From the NCBI RefSeq assembly GCF_006175995.1, contig NZ_VDMB01000004.1, positions 124,001 to 188,000 on the forward strand: 64,000 nucleotides of DNA, read 5' to 3'. The number at the start of each line of letters is the position of its first letter. Position 1 is the stretch's first letter. A program made the position numbers and the translations under genes. This document shows, in pieces, positions 50,649 to 57,970 of the stretch. Origin of the DNA: Desulfobotulus mexicanus (GTDB lineage: Bacteria; Desulfobacterota; Desulfobacteria; Desulfobacterales; ASO4-4). The notes below the pieces were generated by a model. It made no database searches and was not told the origin of the DNA. It worked only from the letters and a program-made list of their open reading frames with translations.

Positions 50649-50685
50649 AGAAATTTCTGATTCAGCATTATTCTTAAATTAAAGG

Positions 50686-50710
50686 GGCAGGCCCTGTGCC
50701 TGCCTTTTTT
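50686..50710 (+). terminator. Intrinsic terminator after the flotillin gene
   Basis: GGCAGGC-CCTGT-GCCTGCC followed by six T (50705-50710), 38 bases after the flotillin stop. This is a textbook Rho-independent terminator. Confidence 0.9.
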
Positions 50711-50984: not shown

Positions 50985-51016
50985 TTGACACGGATACGAG
51001 TCTGTGTTTTTCTATT
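50985..51016 (+). promoter_or_regulatory. Candidate trp operon promoter
   Basis: A perfect TTGACA lies at 50985-50990, the only such box in the gap. The best -10-like sequence, TCTATT at 51011-51016, is 20 bases away, which is long. TATAAA at 51025 is an alternative -10 without a good -35. A transcript starting around here would carry the leader peptide beginning at 51076. Confidence 0.3.
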
Positions 51017-51075
51017 TTTGTTTCTATAAACAGAAACACCGTGACCAAAGTTTAATGTTTTATAAGGGGAAAGAA

Positions 51076-51159
51076 ATGAAAAGCCTTTGCACAGAAAAAA
51101 ATATATCCATTCTCTGGTGGTGGCCCGCATCTTCCGGGCACCACGGCACAGGCTTATAA
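51076..51159 (+). CDS. trpL: trp operon leader peptide with three tandem Trp codons
   Basis: A 27-residue open frame from ATG 51076, five bases after AAGGGGA, to TAA 51157. Codons 14-16 are TGG TGG TGG (51115-51123), giving SILWWWP. Runs of Trp codons are the hallmark of leader peptides that sense charged tRNA-Trp. It lies about 190 bases upstream of trpE and is followed by competing RNA hairpins and an intrinsic terminator. The frame is too short for usual gene calling. The assignment rests on the Trp run, the ribosome site and the context. Confidence 0.88.
   Translation: MKSLCTEKNISILWWWPASSGHHGTGL
51115..51147 (+). promoter_or_regulatory. trp leader hairpin 1:2 covering the Trp codons
   Basis: The Trp-codon segment TGGTGGTGGCCCG can pair with CCGGGCACCACGG downstream (about 51133-51146). 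A ribosome stalled on the Trp codons would prevent this pairing and free CCACGG (51141-51146). That segment can instead pair with CCGTGG (51243-51248) in the terminator stem, an antiterminator. Pairings were found by eye. Confidence 0.6.
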
Positions 51160-51167
51160 AAAGCCAG

Positions 51168-51203
51168 ATGGCCAGCAGGTGTCCCATGACACCGCAGGCC
51201 ATG
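51168..51203 (+). promoter_or_regulatory. Middle hairpin of the trp leader
   Basis: ATGGCCAGCAGGTGTC pairs with GACACCGCAGGCCAT around the loop CCAT, with one mismatch and one bulge. It holds CCGCAG, which could otherwise pair with CTGCGG (51232-51237) of the terminator. It therefore offers a second switchable pairing. Confidence 0.5.
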
Positions 51204-51227
51204 ACAGGTTTTACATCAAAGATATCA

Positions 51228-51258
51228 GGGGCTGCGGATCTACCGTGGCCCCTTTTTT
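51228..51258 (+). terminator. trp attenuator (intrinsic terminator)
   Basis: GGGGCTGCGG pairs with CCGTGGCCCC (two G-U pairs) around the loop ATCTA, followed immediately by six T (51253-51258). It lies 92 bases before the trpE ATG. When leader translation proceeds normally this hairpin should stop transcription. Confidence 0.85.
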
Positions 51259-51350
51259 CGTTTAAAGGCATGGGTATGGAGTTTAAAAAATTAGTCCAGC
51301 CCCTATGCAAAAGCCTTAAATTTCAAACATTATAAAGGATAGAATACGCC

Positions 51351-52838
51351 ATGCTCCTTGAACGCTTTCCGGAAAAAATCTTTTTCAATGAAAAAGTCAG
51401 GGCTGGATGCAATGTCGTGCCTTTATGCGCCCGCATCCTTGCGGACAGTGAAACGCCCGTCTCCATGCTGCGCCGCTTTCACAATTCCCAGGATCCTATC
51501 TTCCTGTTTGAGTCCGTGGAGGGGGGGGAGCGCTGGGCAAGGTACAGCTTCCTTGGCACAAGTTTTAGGTCTGAAATCAGAATTTATCAGGACCGCATAG
51601 AAAAACACGGCCCCGGTCCAACAGAAACCCTTCCCCACAAGGGTGATTTCACCCCTGCCCTGAGGCAGATTCTCCAACGCTACAAACTGGCTGAACTGGA
51701 AGACCTGCCCCCCTTCCCCGGCGGTCTTGTGGGATATCTCAGCTATGAGGCGGTAAGCAGTTTTGAAAAAATTCCCCACAGCCTTCCCCCATCAAGGCCG
51801 CTGGGAGTATTTCTCATTCCCGATACCCTTATGGTCTTTGACAACCACCGCCACACCCTGACCTGCATCTGCCTTGCCTTTTTAGAAGACGGAGCCAGTG
51901 CGGACAGCGCCTATACCACGGCGGAAGCAAGACTGGAAACCCTGCTTGAAACCGTCAGAAAGCCTGCCCCTGAAGAAATAGTCTTGCAGGGACCTGCTAC
52001 GGTTCTCCAGCCCATGACACCGCCAGATATCTTCCGGGAGCGGGTGGAAAGGGTGAAAAATCATATCATGGAAGGCGATATCATTCAGGCCGTAATCTCC
52101 CAGTCTTTTGAAGGTCCGGCTCCGGATGATCCCGTAGCCCTGTACAGAGCTGTGCGCTACACCAATCCATCACCCTATCTTTTCTTTCTCAGGGCCGGAG
52201 GCCAGACCCTTGTGGGTTCTTCCCCGGAAACCATGGTACGCCTTGAAGAAGGCCTTGCCACACTGAGGCCCATCGCAGGCACCCGGCCAAGGGGCCTCAA
52301 TCCTTCGGAAGACCGCCGCCTTGCAGATGATCTTTTAAAGGATGAAAAGGAAAAAGCGGAACACCTCATGCTGGTGGATCTTGGCCGCAACGATCTTGGC
52401 CGGATCGCTCGAACGGGCTCGGTTCAGGTAACAGATCTTATGATGGTGGAGCGCTACTCCCATGTCATGCATCTGGTTTCCAACATTACAGCCCAGCTGA
52501 AGCCGGAACTGGATGCCCTGGATCTTGTGGCAGCCACCTTCCCCGCCGGTACCCTTTCCGGAGCACCCAAAATCCGGGCCATGGAAATAATAGCGGAAAA
52601 CGAGGACCAGCCCAGAGACGCCTATGGCGGCGCTGTGGGATATTTCAGTTTCAACGGCAACATGGATATGGCCATAGTCATCCGCACTGCCATCATCCGT
52701 GGTGAAACCCTCACCGTACGCTCAGGTGCAGGAATTGTGGCGGACTCGGACCCTGAAACCGAAAGACAGGAAACCCTGAACAAAGCAAGAGCCCTCCAGA
52801 CGGCCCTTGCCATGCTTACAGGCCCCAAGCCCCTATAA
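51351..52838 (+). CDS. trpE: Anthranilate synthase component I
   Basis: A 495-residue TrpE that makes anthranilate from chorismate with ammonia from TrpG. The N-terminal Trp-feedback motif reads IFLFESVEGG, keeping the key Ser of LLES-type motifs. The chorismate-binding half shows DIIQAVISQSF, VGSSPETMVRL, PIAGTRPRG, LVDLGRNDLGR and AGTLSGAPKIRAME. It is the first structural gene of trpEGDCFBA, 92 bases after the attenuator. AAAGGA lies 11 bases upstream of the ATG, a slightly wide spacing. Confidence 0.95.
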   Translation: MLLERFPEKIFFNEKVRAGCNVVPLCARILADSETPVSMLRRFHNSQDPIFLFESVEGGERWARYSFLGTSFRSEIRIYQDRIEKHGPGPTETLPHKGDFTPALRQILQRYKLAELEDLPPFPGGLVGYLSYEAVSSFEKIPHSLPPSRPLGVFLIPDTLMVFDNHRHTLTCICLAFLEDGASADSAYTTAEARLETLLETVRKPAPEEIVLQGPATVLQPMTPPDIFRERVERVKNHIMEGDIIQAVISQSFEGPAPDDPVALYRAVRYTNPSPYLFFLRAGGQTLVGSSPETMVRLEEGLATLRPIAGTRPRGLNPSEDRRLADDLLKDEKEKAEHLMLVDLGRNDLGRIARTGSVQVTDLMMVERYSHVMHLVSNITAQLKPELDALDLVAATFPAGTLSGAPKIRAMEIIAENEDQPRDAYGGAVGYFSFNGNMDMAIVIRTAIIRGETLTVRSGAGIVADSDPETERQETLNKARALQTALAMLTGPKPL

Positions 52839-52849
52839 GGAGAAGAATC

Positions 52850-53458
52850 ATGGAAAAAACCCGGATTCTCATGGTGGATAATTTTGATTCCTTCACCTTC
52901 AATCTGGTGCAGTATTTTGAAGAGCTTGGTGCTGAGGTTGTCACCTTCAGAAACAACAATATTACAGCCGAAGAGATTGAAAATATGGATATTGACGGCC
53001 TTGTCATTTCTCCAGGACCGGGAAGGCCTGAAAATGCAGGTGTTTCCATGGATTTTATCCGGCGTTTTTCCGGCAAAAAACCCATACTCGGCGTATGTCT
53101 GGGACATCAGAGCATTGCAAGGGTATTTGATGCGGAAGTGGTCCATGCAAAGCGGCTCATGCATGGCAAGGTTTCTGAAATCACAGCCGACGGAAAGGGT
53201 GTTTTTGCAGGTGTCACCCGGCCCTTCAAGGCCATGCGTTACCATTCATTAGCCGTCAGGGAAGAAAGTCTTCCCTTTTGCCTTGAAATCACAGCCCGCT
53301 CAGAAGACGGGGAAATCATGGGGCTGCGTCATCGGGAACACCCCACCGAAGGAATACAGTTCCATCCCGAATCCATCATGACCCCCATGGGCAAACGCTT
53401 TCTTCGTAATTTTCTGGATCAGGCCGCAGGTCATATATCAGGCCATACAAAGGAGTGA
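52850..53458 (+). CDS. trpG: Anthranilate synthase component II (glutamine amidotransferase)
   Basis: A 202-residue class I glutamine amidotransferase that supplies ammonia to TrpE. The catalytic Cys is in GVCLGHQS, and the His and Glu in GIQFHPESIM. The oxyanion Gly motif SPGPGRPENAG is present. It is a separate gene and not fused to trpD as in enterobacteria. In some bacteria such a subunit also serves p-aminobenzoate synthesis; the operon position makes tryptophan its main role. It starts 12 bases after trpE and ends 4 bases before trpD. Confidence 0.95.
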   Translation: MEKTRILMVDNFDSFTFNLVQYFEELGAEVVTFRNNNITAEEIENMDIDGLVISPGPGRPENAGVSMDFIRRFSGKKPILGVCLGHQSIARVFDAEVVHAKRLMHGKVSEITADGKGVFAGVTRPFKAMRYHSLAVREESLPFCLEITARSEDGEIMGLRHREHPTEGIQFHPESIMTPMGKRFLRNFLDQAAGHISGHTKE

Positions 53459-53461
53459 ATC

Positions 53462-54490
53462 ATGCTGTTCAGAAAGCTTATGGAAAAAATCATCCGCCAT
53501 GAAGATCTCACGGAACAGGAATGTGGTGAGGCCCTGGAGGCCATATTCACCGGTGAAACCGATCCTGCCACAGTGGCAGGTTTTCTTGCAGCCCTTGCGG
53601 TAAAGGGAGAAAGCGCCAGCGAACTGACCGGTGCGGCCCGTGTTCTGAGGCGTAACATGCAGCGCATCCAGACACCGGCCAGCCTTACGGTGGACACCTG
53701 CGGTACGGGCGGAGACGGGGCAGATACCTTCAATATTTCCACCACAGCGGCCTTTGTGGTGGCAGGCTGCGGGGCGGTGGTGGCAAAACACGGCAACCGT
53801 TCCGTTTCCAGCAAATGCGGCAGTGCCGATGTACTGGAAACACTCGGTGTTCGGCTCGACATCCCTGCGGAAGCCGTGGAGGAAGCCCTCTTTGAAATCA
53901 ATATAGGGTTTCTCTTTGCCCCAAACTTCCATGCCGCTGTCCGCCATGCAGGTCCTGCCAGAAAAGCCCTTGGCATCCGTACCCTCTTCAATGCCATCGG
54001 TCCCATGGCCAACCCTGCGGCGGCATCCTGTCAGGTGATAGGTGTGTTCAAGCCGGAGCTTACGGAAAGCATGGGACAGGCCCTGCTGGATCTTGGAACC
54101 CGCAAAGCCTTTGTTGTACACGGCCATGACGGGCTGGATGAAATTTCCGTATGCGCTCCCACAAGGGTGACTGAGGCAGCAGATGGCAGGCTGAAAACCT
54201 ATGACCTTTATCCTGAGATATATTTTGGCGAACCCGCAGATCCTGAAGACCTGAAAGGTGGGGATGCTACAGAAAATGCTGCCATTACCCGGGCTGTTCT
54301 CTCCGGTGAAAAGGGAGCAAAGCGCAACATTGTTCTCATCAACAGTGCGGCCGCCCTTGTGGCCTGTGACAAGGCAAAGGACATTAAAGATGGCATCAAA
54401 CTTGCCGGGGAAGCCATTGATTCCGGCGCTGCCATGGCAAAACTGGAGGCCCTGATCCAATTTACTCAGGAGGCCTCAGGTGGTAGATAA
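53462..54490 (+). CDS. trpD: Anthranilate phosphoribosyltransferase
   Basis: A 342-residue enzyme that joins anthranilate to PRPP. The PRPP-binding loop DTCGTGGDGADTFNIST, the anthranilate-site KHGNRSVSSKCGSADVLE and FNAIGPMANPA are all clear. Length is normal for the unfused enzyme. It is translated directly after trpG, and its last 11 bases overlap trpC. Confidence 0.95.
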   Translation: MLFRKLMEKIIRHEDLTEQECGEALEAIFTGETDPATVAGFLAALAVKGESASELTGAARVLRRNMQRIQTPASLTVDTCGTGGDGADTFNISTTAAFVVAGCGAVVAKHGNRSVSSKCGSADVLETLGVRLDIPAEAVEEALFEINIGFLFAPNFHAAVRHAGPARKALGIRTLFNAIGPMANPAAASCQVIGVFKPELTESMGQALLDLGTRKAFVVHGHDGLDEISVCAPTRVTEAADGRLKTYDLYPEIYFGEPADPEDLKGGDATENAAITRAVLSGEKGAKRNIVLINSAAALVACDKAKDIKDGIKLAGEAIDSGAAMAKLEALIQFTQEASGGR

Positions 54491-55292
54491 AATGACTTCC
54501 ATTTTGAAAAAAATCCTTGAAAAACGAAAATTCAGGATTGAACAGGCCCAAAGGGAGCGGCCTGAAAGCCTTTTATCTGACATGCTTTCCCAAAGACCCA
54601 ATATCCGGGATTTTGGGGCCGGTCTGCACCAAAGCCCCCAAAAACCCGCAGCCATTATTGCAGAAATTAAACGCAGATCCCCTTCCAAGGGGGATCTTAA
54701 TCCAGACCTTGATGCAGCATCCCTTGCAAAGGCCTATGAAAATGGCGGAGCTGTAGCCCTTTCCGTTCTAACGGAACCTGATTTTTTCGGTGGCAGCATT
54801 GAGGATATGAAGGAGGCACGAACAGCAACCCGTCTTCCCGTACTGCGCAAGGATTTTATCTTTCACCCCTATCAGGTGCTGGAATCGGCTGTTCTGGGGG
54901 CAGATGCCATTCTCCTGATCGCCCGTATTCTTGAGCCAAAGCTCCACAAGGAACTGGCGGCTCTGGCTTCTGAGCTGGGTCTCGCTGTGCTGCACGAAAT
55001 CCATGGAGAAGAAGAAATTCCCCAGACACTGGATGCAGGGGCCAGATTTATTGGCATCAACAACAGGGATCTTGCCACCTTTGAAACGGACATCCGCATT
55101 GCCCCCAGCATGGCGGCCCTCCTGCCCAAGGGAGTTATTCCCGTGGCCCTTTCCGGCATCCGGGGACCTGAGGACATAGCCGTCTCCAGACACCTTGGTG
55201 TGCACAGCTTTCTTGTGGGCGAAAGCCTTGTGCTCAGCCATGATCCGGAAAAAGACCTGAAGGCCATGGTGGAAAGCGGGGTTCTCCCATGA
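54480..55292 (+). CDS. trpC: Indole-3-glycerol phosphate synthase
   Basis: A 270-residue TIM barrel that closes the indole ring. Key motifs are AEIKRRSPSKG (catalytic Lys), SVLTEPDFFGG, VLRKDFIFHPYQ, GINNRDLATFE and GVHSFLVGESL. It is not fused to TrpF. The GTG at 54480 is preferred because AGGAGG lies six bases upstream; this overlaps trpD by 11 bases. An ATG at 54492 is the alternative. It ends in a 4-base overlap with trpF. Confidence 0.93.
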   Translation: MVDKMTSILKKILEKRKFRIEQAQRERPESLLSDMLSQRPNIRDFGAGLHQSPQKPAAIIAEIKRRSPSKGDLNPDLDAASLAKAYENGGAVALSVLTEPDFFGGSIEDMKEARTATRLPVLRKDFIFHPYQVLESAVLGADAILLIARILEPKLHKELAALASELGLAVLHEIHGEEEIPQTLDAGARFIGINNRDLATFETDIRIAPSMAALLPKGVIPVALSGIRGPEDIAVSRHLGVHSFLVGESLVLSHDPEKDLKAMVESGVLP

Positions 55293-55912
55293 CCTTCATC
55301 AAGATCTGCGGCATCACCAGCCCGGATACGGCCCGTTTCTGTGCAGACCTTAAGGTGGATGCCATAGGATGCGTCTTTTTTCCAAAAAGCCCGAGACACC
55401 TTGATGTAAAAATGGCAAAAACCATCACCGATGCCGTACCAAAAACCATGCTGAAGGTGGCTGTCATGGTCGATCCCGATTTCAAGATATCTGTGGATAC
55501 GGCAACAAAGGCAGGCTGCAATGCCATACAGCTCCATGGAAAAGAAAATCCTTTTCTGGTGGAATCCCTGCGACAGGAGGGTTTTTACGTCATTAAGGGA
55601 CTTTATCTCTTTCAGGAACCTACGGTGGCTGAGGCTTCAGCTTATCCGGCAGACCGCTTTCTTGTGGAAGCTGCCGCAGGAACCATGCCCGGCGGCAACG
55701 CCAAAAGCTGGGACTGGGCAGCGGCCAAGGATTTCTGCCAGCGTTATCCTGCCCTGCTTGCCGGTGGCCTCAATCCTGATAATGTAAAAGATGCCCTCAT
55801 CGAAGCAAAGCCCTTTGGCGTGGATGTAAGCTCCGGCGTTGAATCTTCGCCCGGTATCAAGGATCATGAAAAAATAAAGGCCTTTGTGGAGGCCGTTCGT
55901 AATTATATATGA
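55289..55912 (+). CDS. trpF: Phosphoribosylanthranilate isomerase
   Basis: A 207-residue TIM barrel. The catalytic Cys is in FIKICGITS at the N terminus and the catalytic Asp in [11 protein letters not shown] near the C terminus. [14 protein letters not shown] and AIQLHGKEN fit the family, as does [11 protein letters not shown]. The start overlaps trpC by 4 bases and trpB follows after 10 bases. Confidence 0.94.
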
Positions 55913-55922
55913 AAGGAAAACC

Positions 55923-57155
55923 ATGACTGCTTACCCGGATTTCTCTGCCCTGCCCGATGCAAAGGGCCATTTTGGAATTTTCGGCGGCCGCTATGTGGGA
56001 GAAACCCTCATGCCCGCCCTTCTGGAGCTGGAAAAAAGCTTTGAGTCCATCCGGAAGGACAAGGACTTTCAAAGGGAGCTTCTGATTCTTCTTCAGGATT
56101 ATGCAGGACGGCCAACGGCCCTCTATGCCGCAGACCGGCTTTCGGACATGGCCGGAGGAGCAAGAATTTTTCTCAAACGGGAAGATCTGACCCACACCGG
56201 TGCCCATAAAATCAATAATACCCTTGGGCAGGTGCTGCTGGCCCATCGCATGGGAAAACGCCGGGTCATTGCCGAGACCGGAGCAGGTCAGCACGGTGTG
56301 GCCACGGCCACGGCCGCAGCCCGTTTTGGCATGTCGTGTACGGTTTTCATGGGGAAAGAAGATATCCGGCGACAGGCCCCCAATGTGGCACGTATGAAAC
56401 TTCTCGGCGCAGAAGTTATTTCCGTAGAAGAAGGAACCGCTACCCTGAAGGATGCCATGAACGCAGCACTCCGTCACTGGACAGCCTGTGTGGAAGACAC
56501 CTTTTATGTGATCGGTTCCGTGGCAGGCCCCCATCCCTATCCCCTGATGGTGCGGGAATTTCAAAAAGTGATTGGTGAAGAAGCAAAGGAGCAGTTTTTG
56601 ACCAGAACCGGCGGTATGCCAGACCTTCTGGTAGCAGCCGTAGGCGGCGGCTCCAACGCCATGGGGCTTTTCTTTCCCTTTCTGGACACAAAGGTTGAAA
56701 TGCTGGGAGTGGAAGCCGCAGGCGAAGGCCTTGAAGGCCGTCATGCGGCCACCCTTCTCAAGGGGAGCGTAGGCGTTCTCCATGGCTCCAAGTCCTATGT
56801 GCTGCAAAGCGAAGACGGCCAGATTCTGGAAGCCCACAGTGTGTCCGCAGGGCTGGATTATCCCGGTGTGGGGCCGGAGCATTCCCTCTTCAAGGACTGC
56901 GGACGGGTACGATACACTGCCATTACGGACATACAGGCCCTTTCCGCCTTCAAGCTTCTGACCCTGAGCGAAGGCATTCTTCCGGCACTGGAATCCAGCC
57001 ATGCCCTGGCCGCTGCAATTCTTGAGGCAAAAAAAAGGCCGAAAACCCAGAGCATTCTTGTGAATCTTTCCGGCAGAGGCGACAAGGACATGGCCAATGC
57101 CACGAATCATCCGGAGTTTGACACCATCAACGCAGAACTTCTTCTGAATTCATAA
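55923..57155 (+). CDS. trpB: Tryptophan synthase beta chain
   Basis: A 410-residue PLP enzyme that joins indole and serine. The PLP Lys is in [14 protein letters not shown]. The phosphate loop VGGGSNAMG and the substrate loop ETGAGQHG are present, with NLSGRGDKD at the end. It is a standard TrpB1-type partner of TrpA. The ATG at 55923 follows GAAAGGAAAA; an in-frame ATG at 55884 lies inside trpF and is rejected. A 417-residue open frame on the opposite strand is a shadow. Confidence 0.95.
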
Positions 57156-57166
57156 GGAATTTGACC

Positions 57167-57970
57167 ATGAACCGCATCAGCAGGATGTTTAATCAGTGCG
57201 AAAAGCACAAAGAAGCTGCCCTCATCGGCTTTGTAACCGCAGGTGATCCGGACATGGAAACCAGCAGAAAAATTATTTTTTCCATGCTGGACAATGGTAT
57301 GGATCTCCTTGAAATCGGTATTCCCTTTTCCGATCCCACGGCAGACGGCCCTGCCATTCAACTGGCTTCCCAGAGGGCACTTAAGGCGGGAATGAGCCTT
57401 GGCCCTGCTCTGAAAATGGTCAAGGAAATCCGGGAAAAGTACCCAACCCCCATTGTACTCTTTTCCTACTTAAACCCCATCCTTGCCCATGGCCCGGAAA
57501 AATTCTGCAAAGATGCCGCAGCTGCTGGAGCAGATGGTGTGCTGGTGGTGGATATGCCCCTTGAGGAATCAAACGAGCTTCTTCCTTTTCTGAAGGTCTC
57601 AGGCCTTGTTTCCATCCCCCTTGTGGCTCCCACCACACCGGAAGACAGAATGAAGGAGATCTGCAAAAATGCTGAAGGATTTCTGTATCTTGTTTCAATG
57701 ACCGGAGTAACCGGCTCCGGTGGCCTTGATCCGGAAAAAGCAGGAGCCATGGCCCGGAAGGTCCGGAGCTTAAGCCCCGTTCCCGTGGCTTTGGGTTTTG
57801 GCATCAGCGAAGCTTCTCAGGTTGCGGCCCTGGCACCGCATACAGACGGTATTGTTATTGGCTCGGCCTTTGTCAGGACCATAGGAGAGACAAAGGATAA
57901 AGAAAAGATCCCGGAGATTCTGGGAAGGATGACAAGGGAATTCAAGCAGGCCTGCAAATATTCAGGCTGA
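57167..57970 (+). CDS. trpA: Tryptophan synthase alpha chain
   Basis: A 267-residue TIM barrel that cleaves indole-3-glycerol phosphate and passes indole to TrpB. The catalytic Glu is in LLEIGIPFSDPTADGPAIQ, which also holds the second catalytic Asp. SMTGVTGSGGL and LGFGISEASQV bind the phosphate. The ATG at 57167 sits eight bases after AAGGA; a TTG six bases earlier is possible but less likely. It is the last gene of the operon. Confidence 0.94.
   Translation: MNRISRMFNQCEKHKEAALIGFVTAGDPDMETSRKIIFSMLDNGMDLLEIGIPFSDPTADGPAIQLASQRALKAGMSLGPALKMVKEIREKYPTPIVLFSYLNPILAHGPEKFCKDAAAAGADGVLVVDMPLEESNELLPFLKVSGLVSIPLVAPTTPEDRMKEICKNAEGFLYLVSMTGVTGSGGLDPEKAGAMARKVRSLSPVPVALGFGISEASQVAALAPHTDGIVIGSAFVRTIGETKDKEKIPEILGRMTREFKQACKYSG

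Follow-up and report, generated by a model that had tools for sequence, protein, structure and literature searches.

What controls transcription of the trp operon in Desulfobotulus mexicanus, and does the sequence ahead of trpE act as a ribosome-mediated attenuator? A preliminary description of the window analysed here (64,000 nucleotides of contig NZ_VDMB01000004.1), made from the letters alone, had proposed such a switch from a tryptophan-rich reading frame, alternative hairpins and a terminator. We examined this proposal by folding, by comparison with two sister species and by a survey of trpE upstream regions from the order.

Results

The trp leader and its operon

In this Desulfobotulus, the genes downstream of the leader lie in the order trpEGDCFBA. 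In the window, trpE, the first regulated gene, runs from an ATG at 51351 to 52838 on the forward strand, followed on the same strand by trpG, trpD, trpC, trpF, trpB, and trpA (52850-57970); among named relatives, Desulfobotulus alkaliphilus is the nearest (TrpE 96%). Upstream of trpE, and as first described, a forward-strand leader peptide ORF encoding MKSLCTEKNISILWWWPASSGHHGTGL (51076-51159) comprises 27 codons and a stop codon at 51157-51159, contains three adjacent TGG control codons at 51115-51123, and is preceded on the same strand by the ribosome binding site AAGGGG (51064-51069), 6 bases 5' of its ATG at 51076. The frame, the three tryptophans and the C-terminal GHHGTG are kept in three Desulfobotulus species, and the Trp codons are conserved across the order. 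The GC-rich hairpin ending in six T that had been placed 92 bases 5' of trpE is likewise there, with its stem at 51227-51253 and the T run at 51253-51258. Further upstream, the interval that separates a flotillin-like gene from the trp region holds a candidate bidirectional terminator (50685-50704), a GC-rich palindrome flanked on each side by T runs.

Three hairpins built from six segments

Folded as a whole, the leader (51050-51264) reaches -81.6 kcal/mol (z -4.8), and none of 200 shuffles was as good. Six forward-strand segments form three successive hairpins. In the first, segment 1 (51117-51127) pairs with segment 2 (51135-51144), covering the Trp codons as the preliminary description supposed; this hairpin is not exceptional by itself (z -1.5), and its two arms covary among relatives. 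Segment 3 (51168-51183) and segment 4 (51188-51202) are the 5' and 3' arms of the middle hairpin (51168-51202; -21.9 kcal/mol, z -4.9), which bears out the earlier remark that a strong middle hairpin makes this layout unlike the four-segment enterobacterial trp form. It sits at the position of the first terminator of relatives and is without a U-tract. Segment 5 (51227-51237) and segment 6 (51243-51258, including the U-tract at 51253-51258) are the arms of the terminator, the stem of which gives z -5.1 when folded alone. In addition, 51136-51142 of segment 2 can pair in the folds with segment 3 at 51178-51184, and CCGCAG of segment 4 (51192-51197) is complementary to CTGCGG of segment 5 (51232-51237); the 4:5 fold gives z -4.7, and 4:5 covaries among relatives. 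The folds and the covariation of relatives thus give the arrangement of a his-type leader, with three successive hairpins and the coupled alternatives 2:3 and 4:5. The Rfam Trp_leader and His_leader models found no match in the window or in nine relatives, giving sub-threshold chance matches only, and a T-box model found none in the window.

Alternative pairings in three species and in growing transcripts

When the window was aligned with two sister Desulfobotulus species, segment 2 was CGGGCACCACGG in two of the three and CGGACACCACGG in the third, and the change from GGGCACC to GGACACC in the sister genome G026 keeps and strengthens the 2:3 pairing with GGTGTCC. Segment 4, CCGCAGGCC, and segment 5, GGGGCTGCGG, are invariant across the three species and mutually complementary. 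The terminator 3' arm reads CCGTGG, CCGCAG, or CCGCGG depending on the species; all three pair with the invariant 5' arm CTGCGG, such that these one-sided changes keep the stem.

Growing transcripts were folded with segment 1 masked, mimicking a stalled ribosome. In the window, 2:3 forms once the transcript extends through segment 3, before segment 4 is made, and with segment 5 complete and no segment 6 the fold consists of 2:3 and 4:5 at -40.8 kcal/mol; the same fold is obtained in all three species (-39.5 to -40.8 kcal/mol). The preliminary description had offered masked versus unmasked folding as a check on its reading, and the masked intermediate transcript folds into 2:3 and 4:5. By computed folds and covariation, therefore, a mutually exclusive antiterminator is favoured when the control codons are covered. 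With the ribosome placed on the stop codon, 3:4 is formed in the window and segment 5 is unpaired with segment 4; at intermediate length in this state, equilibrium slightly favours 4:5 in the two sister species, as it does in the window with a smaller ribosome mask. At equilibrium the full-length RNA favours the terminator 5:6 whether or not segment 1 is masked; antitermination must therefore depend on kinetics, as it does in known attenuators.

Conservation of the leader across the order

Regions upstream of trpE were collected from 146 genomes of the order and from other contigs, and the 127 distinct regions of sufficient length were counted. A leader with three adjacent Trp codons (WWW) occurs in 77 of these 127 compared with 0 of 510 shuffled regions, and one with WW or W.W in 115 compared with 58 of the 510. 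At a criterion of -7 kcal/mol, a hairpin with a U-tract stands between leader and trpE at all 116 leader loci, the matches at L020, L042, and L153 being weak or doubtful. Aligned, the relatives conserve the Trp codons and keep the terminator with compensating changes, the outcome on which the preliminary description had staked its reading. The leader in the window accordingly has features that define a ribosome-mediated attenuator, an ORF with a Trp run and ribosome site and an intrinsic terminator before trpE, and the WWW leaders, the conserved terminator and the compensating changes give the proposed mechanism strong comparative support. No Trp-rich leader was found within 600 bases of trpE in the order members at L105, L107, L147, L161, L163, L165, L176, or L182, some of which are cut by contig ends. 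In other phyla, L026 and L027 (Lentisphaeria) and L041 (a Zixibacteria MAG) have WWW leaders 5' of trpE, each followed by one terminator of unrelated sequence.

Tandem terminators and covariation in relatives

A full terminator census found at least two terminators after the Trp codons at 86 of the 116 leader loci, typically about 50-75 and 95-130 bases 3' of those codons, both sharing the core CCGTGG...CCACGG. In the set from the order, 74 of 96 leader loci and 47 of 58 families show the tandem form (e.g., L117, L131, L148), and orders elsewhere in the phylum have it too (e.g., G175, G192, G171, G158). The preliminary description lacked both these terminators and the operator-like palindrome near the promoter described below. 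A split of the loci into a short (four-segment) and a long class, which had used only the strongest terminator per locus, was rejected; the census finds tandem terminators in most of both.

Covariation was assessed in 83 aligned tandem loci, of which one per family was kept (47), a reduction that lessens but does not remove the problem of kinship; the null was obtained from 1000 shuffles of whole segments among sequences, and the statistics are not tree-aware. Changes on both sides of the six core pairs were counted in 19 cells for 3:4 (5.7 when shuffled), 19 for 5:6 (6.5), and 18 for 4:5 (5.7), values that 0 of 1000 shuffles reached in each case. For 3:6, a control of non-neighbouring segments whose complementarity has the same common origin, the count was 7 against 5.1, which 195/1000 shuffles reach; a second value for this control is reached by 303/1000. 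Covariation of 1:2 and 2:3, again with one sequence per family, exceeds all 1000 shuffles, with about 75-79% of cells paired, the 2:3 count leaving out its mostly mismatched central position. A standard covariation tool gave counts compatible with the shuffle-based result. Segments 2-4 of Desulfobotulus are too diverged for column-by-column alignment with the rest of the order, and for this reason the evidence for the window is the three-species comparison and the folds; the order-wide covariation supports the refolding chain in relatives and may be carried over to the window by analogy only. As a general score, the equilibrium sequestration probability of the terminator 5' arm was also tried. 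It exceeded 0.5 at 50/53 and 50/52 loci in the stalled state, and at 24/53 (long class, last terminator) and 6/50 (short class) with the ribosome at the stop codon; having separated the ribosome positions partly and the ribosome-free state poorly, it was dropped as evidence.

A candidate TrpR operator at the promoter

Upstream of the leader, a candidate -35 element, TTGACA (50985-50990, forward strand), is invariant in the three Desulfobotulus species; it starts 34-38 bases 5' of a palindrome, TGTTTCT-N6-AGAAACA (51019-51038), near the expected transcription start, and the -10 element is weak. The arms of this palindrome, which lies between TTGACA and the leader, are invariant in the three species. 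The one other exact copy in the genome (G000:C6:103584-103603, in L190) is 45 bases 5' of a TrpR-family gene (L190:1169-1513, reverse strand), which is followed by a second trpB (L190:1-1236, reverse strand), apparently an autoregulated trpR-trpB unit apart from the main trp operon. The protein (L190/L200) scores 56.5 bits against PF01371 (cut-off 27) and 53.6 against the NCBIfam TrpR equivalog, under the cut-off of 67.25.

PF01371 is above cut-off in 16 of the 146 genomes of the order. With at most one mismatch allowed, the palindrome was found 5' of trpE in 11 of 12 TrpR genomes, these being the ones with the trpE upstream region at hand, compared with none of 93 genomes lacking TrpR (Fisher p 5e-14), and it lies just 5' of trpR in nine TrpR genomes. 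Two elements of a TrpR regulon are thus in place, namely a TrpR-family gene in the genome and a putative operator common to trpR and the trp operon. Because the palindrome co-occurs with TrpR and is found 5' of both trpE and trpR, we predict that TrpR very probably uses it as its operator in these bacteria and that trpR is probably autoregulated. The TrpR operator of E. coli differs in sequence from the Desulfobotulus palindrome. At L091 (G076:C163:13436-13455), the palindrome is instead 17-36 bases 5' of trpE, between attenuator and trpE, and the same contig has another copy 8 kb away.

A single U-tracted terminator is present at 9 of 11 leader loci of TrpR genomes, and none or one at 13 of 85 in genomes without TrpR (p 1.6e-5; p 2e-4 when counted by family and TrpR state). 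As this association was noticed post hoc and the families are not fully independent, we offer a trade-off between TrpR and the second terminator as a hypothesis.

Discussion

We take the leader upstream of trpE to be a real ribosome-mediated trp attenuator, with a three-hairpin, his-like form in the window, chained double terminators in most relatives and a probable TrpR layer in Desulfobotulus. The best explanation, to which we give a probability of roughly 80%, is that transcription of the operon is attenuated in a ribosome-mediated manner by three hairpins of six segments, and that its initiation is probably also repressed by TrpR. The basis for the attenuator consists of sequences, folds, conservation and covariation; what we infer is that the ribosome stalls, in which order the RNA refolds in the cell, where the promoter lies and that TrpR binds. 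With ample tryptophan, the ribosome would reach the stop codon and cover segment 2, 3:4 would form, and segment 5 would be left free, such that the terminator 5:6 halts transcription before trpE. With scarce tryptophan, the ribosome would stall on the Trp codons and cover segment 1, and the freed segment 2 would pair with segment 3 (GGGCACC:GGTGTCC). Segment 4 would therefore be left free to pair with segment 5 (CCGCAG:CTGCGG), which would prevent the terminator and allow trpEGDCFBA to be transcribed. Without translation, 1:2, 3:4, and 5:6 would all form and transcription would stop. Initiation would probably be subject to additional repression by TrpR at the palindrome.

The preliminary description had envisaged a different switch, in which CCACGG of the freed segment 2 pairs directly with CCGTGG of the terminator 3' arm and the middle hairpin is a spacer. 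Both sequences are present as it said, and in the window all six positions can pair. However, among the three species segment 2 is fully complementary to the 3' arm in the window only, as both sisters keep CCACGG opposite CCGCAG or CCGCGG, which breaks this pairing and keeps the terminator stem, and the stalled-state folds give 2:3 and 4:5. These are the conserved alternatives; the role of CCACGG:CCGTGG as a conserved switch does not stand, and we regard such a mechanism as highly improbable. It is unlikely, if less so, that the middle hairpin is a pause or spacer only and that the 4:5 complementarity is a by-product of duplicated hairpins, for while the tandem hairpins share core sequence, making segments 4 and 5 complementary by descent, the covariation of 4:5, counted with one sequence per family, exceeds what common descent would give, and that of 3:6, which is shared to the same degree, does not. 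We would be very surprised if the leader and terminator were constitutive, or a small RNA, with trp controlled solely by TrpR or by a promoter 3' of 51258. A good candidate TrpR operator does lie upstream, but since operator and -35 element precede the leader, the repressed transcript includes it, and genomes that lack TrpR also conserve the Trp codons and the switch helices.

In the enterobacterial his leader the U-tract is on the last hairpin only, as here in Desulfobotulus. That leader (Rfam His_leader) also has three hairpins and the same coupled logic, the stalled ribosome leading to B:C and D:E, which prevent the terminator E:F (PMC4046918). It has seven His codons compared with three Trp codons here, the sequences are unrelated, and in most of the order to which Desulfobotulus belongs the middle hairpin is a terminator in its own right; the likeness is one of mechanism, not of descent. 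The enterobacterial trp leader (Rfam Trp_leader) shares with our predicted system its Trp codons, its trp operon and attenuation together with TrpR repression, but has four segments rather than six, and its model has no match here. Actinobacterial trp attenuators have leaders with double or triple UGG and GC-rich terminators, as here, but in another phylum and with a classical terminator/antiterminator pair (PMC1262725). Similarly, the ilvBNC attenuator of C. glutamicum is ribosome-mediated and described with three hairpins, but its overlapping terminator, antiterminator and anti-antiterminator follow a four-segment logic (PMC11857589). The gammaproteobacterial rimP leader resembles the form of the relatives in its tandem terminators and possible antiterminator, but is not a Trp leader-peptide system (PMC2965389). 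In a 2016 comparative study, TrpR was assigned to Gammaproteobacteria and reported as missing from other proteobacterial classes (PMC5343134). Our search for literature on trp attenuation in Desulfobotulus or deltaproteobacteria gave nothing on point; the 2004 survey of attenuators in proteobacteria by Vitreschak and colleagues could hold deltaproteobacterial cases.

Attenuators of this family, most of them with two coupled stop signals, are conserved throughout the order, and with them the range of ribosome-mediated trp attenuation comes to include sulfate reducers. In the chained form, one stalled ribosome would disarm two serial terminators, 2:3 blocking the first and the freed segment 4 blocking the second. 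Two serial terminators coupled by covarying antiterminators were found neither in Rfam nor in the papers searched. On balance, we lean towards a chained double-terminator trp attenuator across the Desulfobacterota, the second checkpoint of which was reduced or lost where TrpR took over part of the control, for example in Desulfobotulus. That TrpR and its operator occur together with loss of the second terminator may represent a natural experiment on replacement between DNA-level and RNA-level control.
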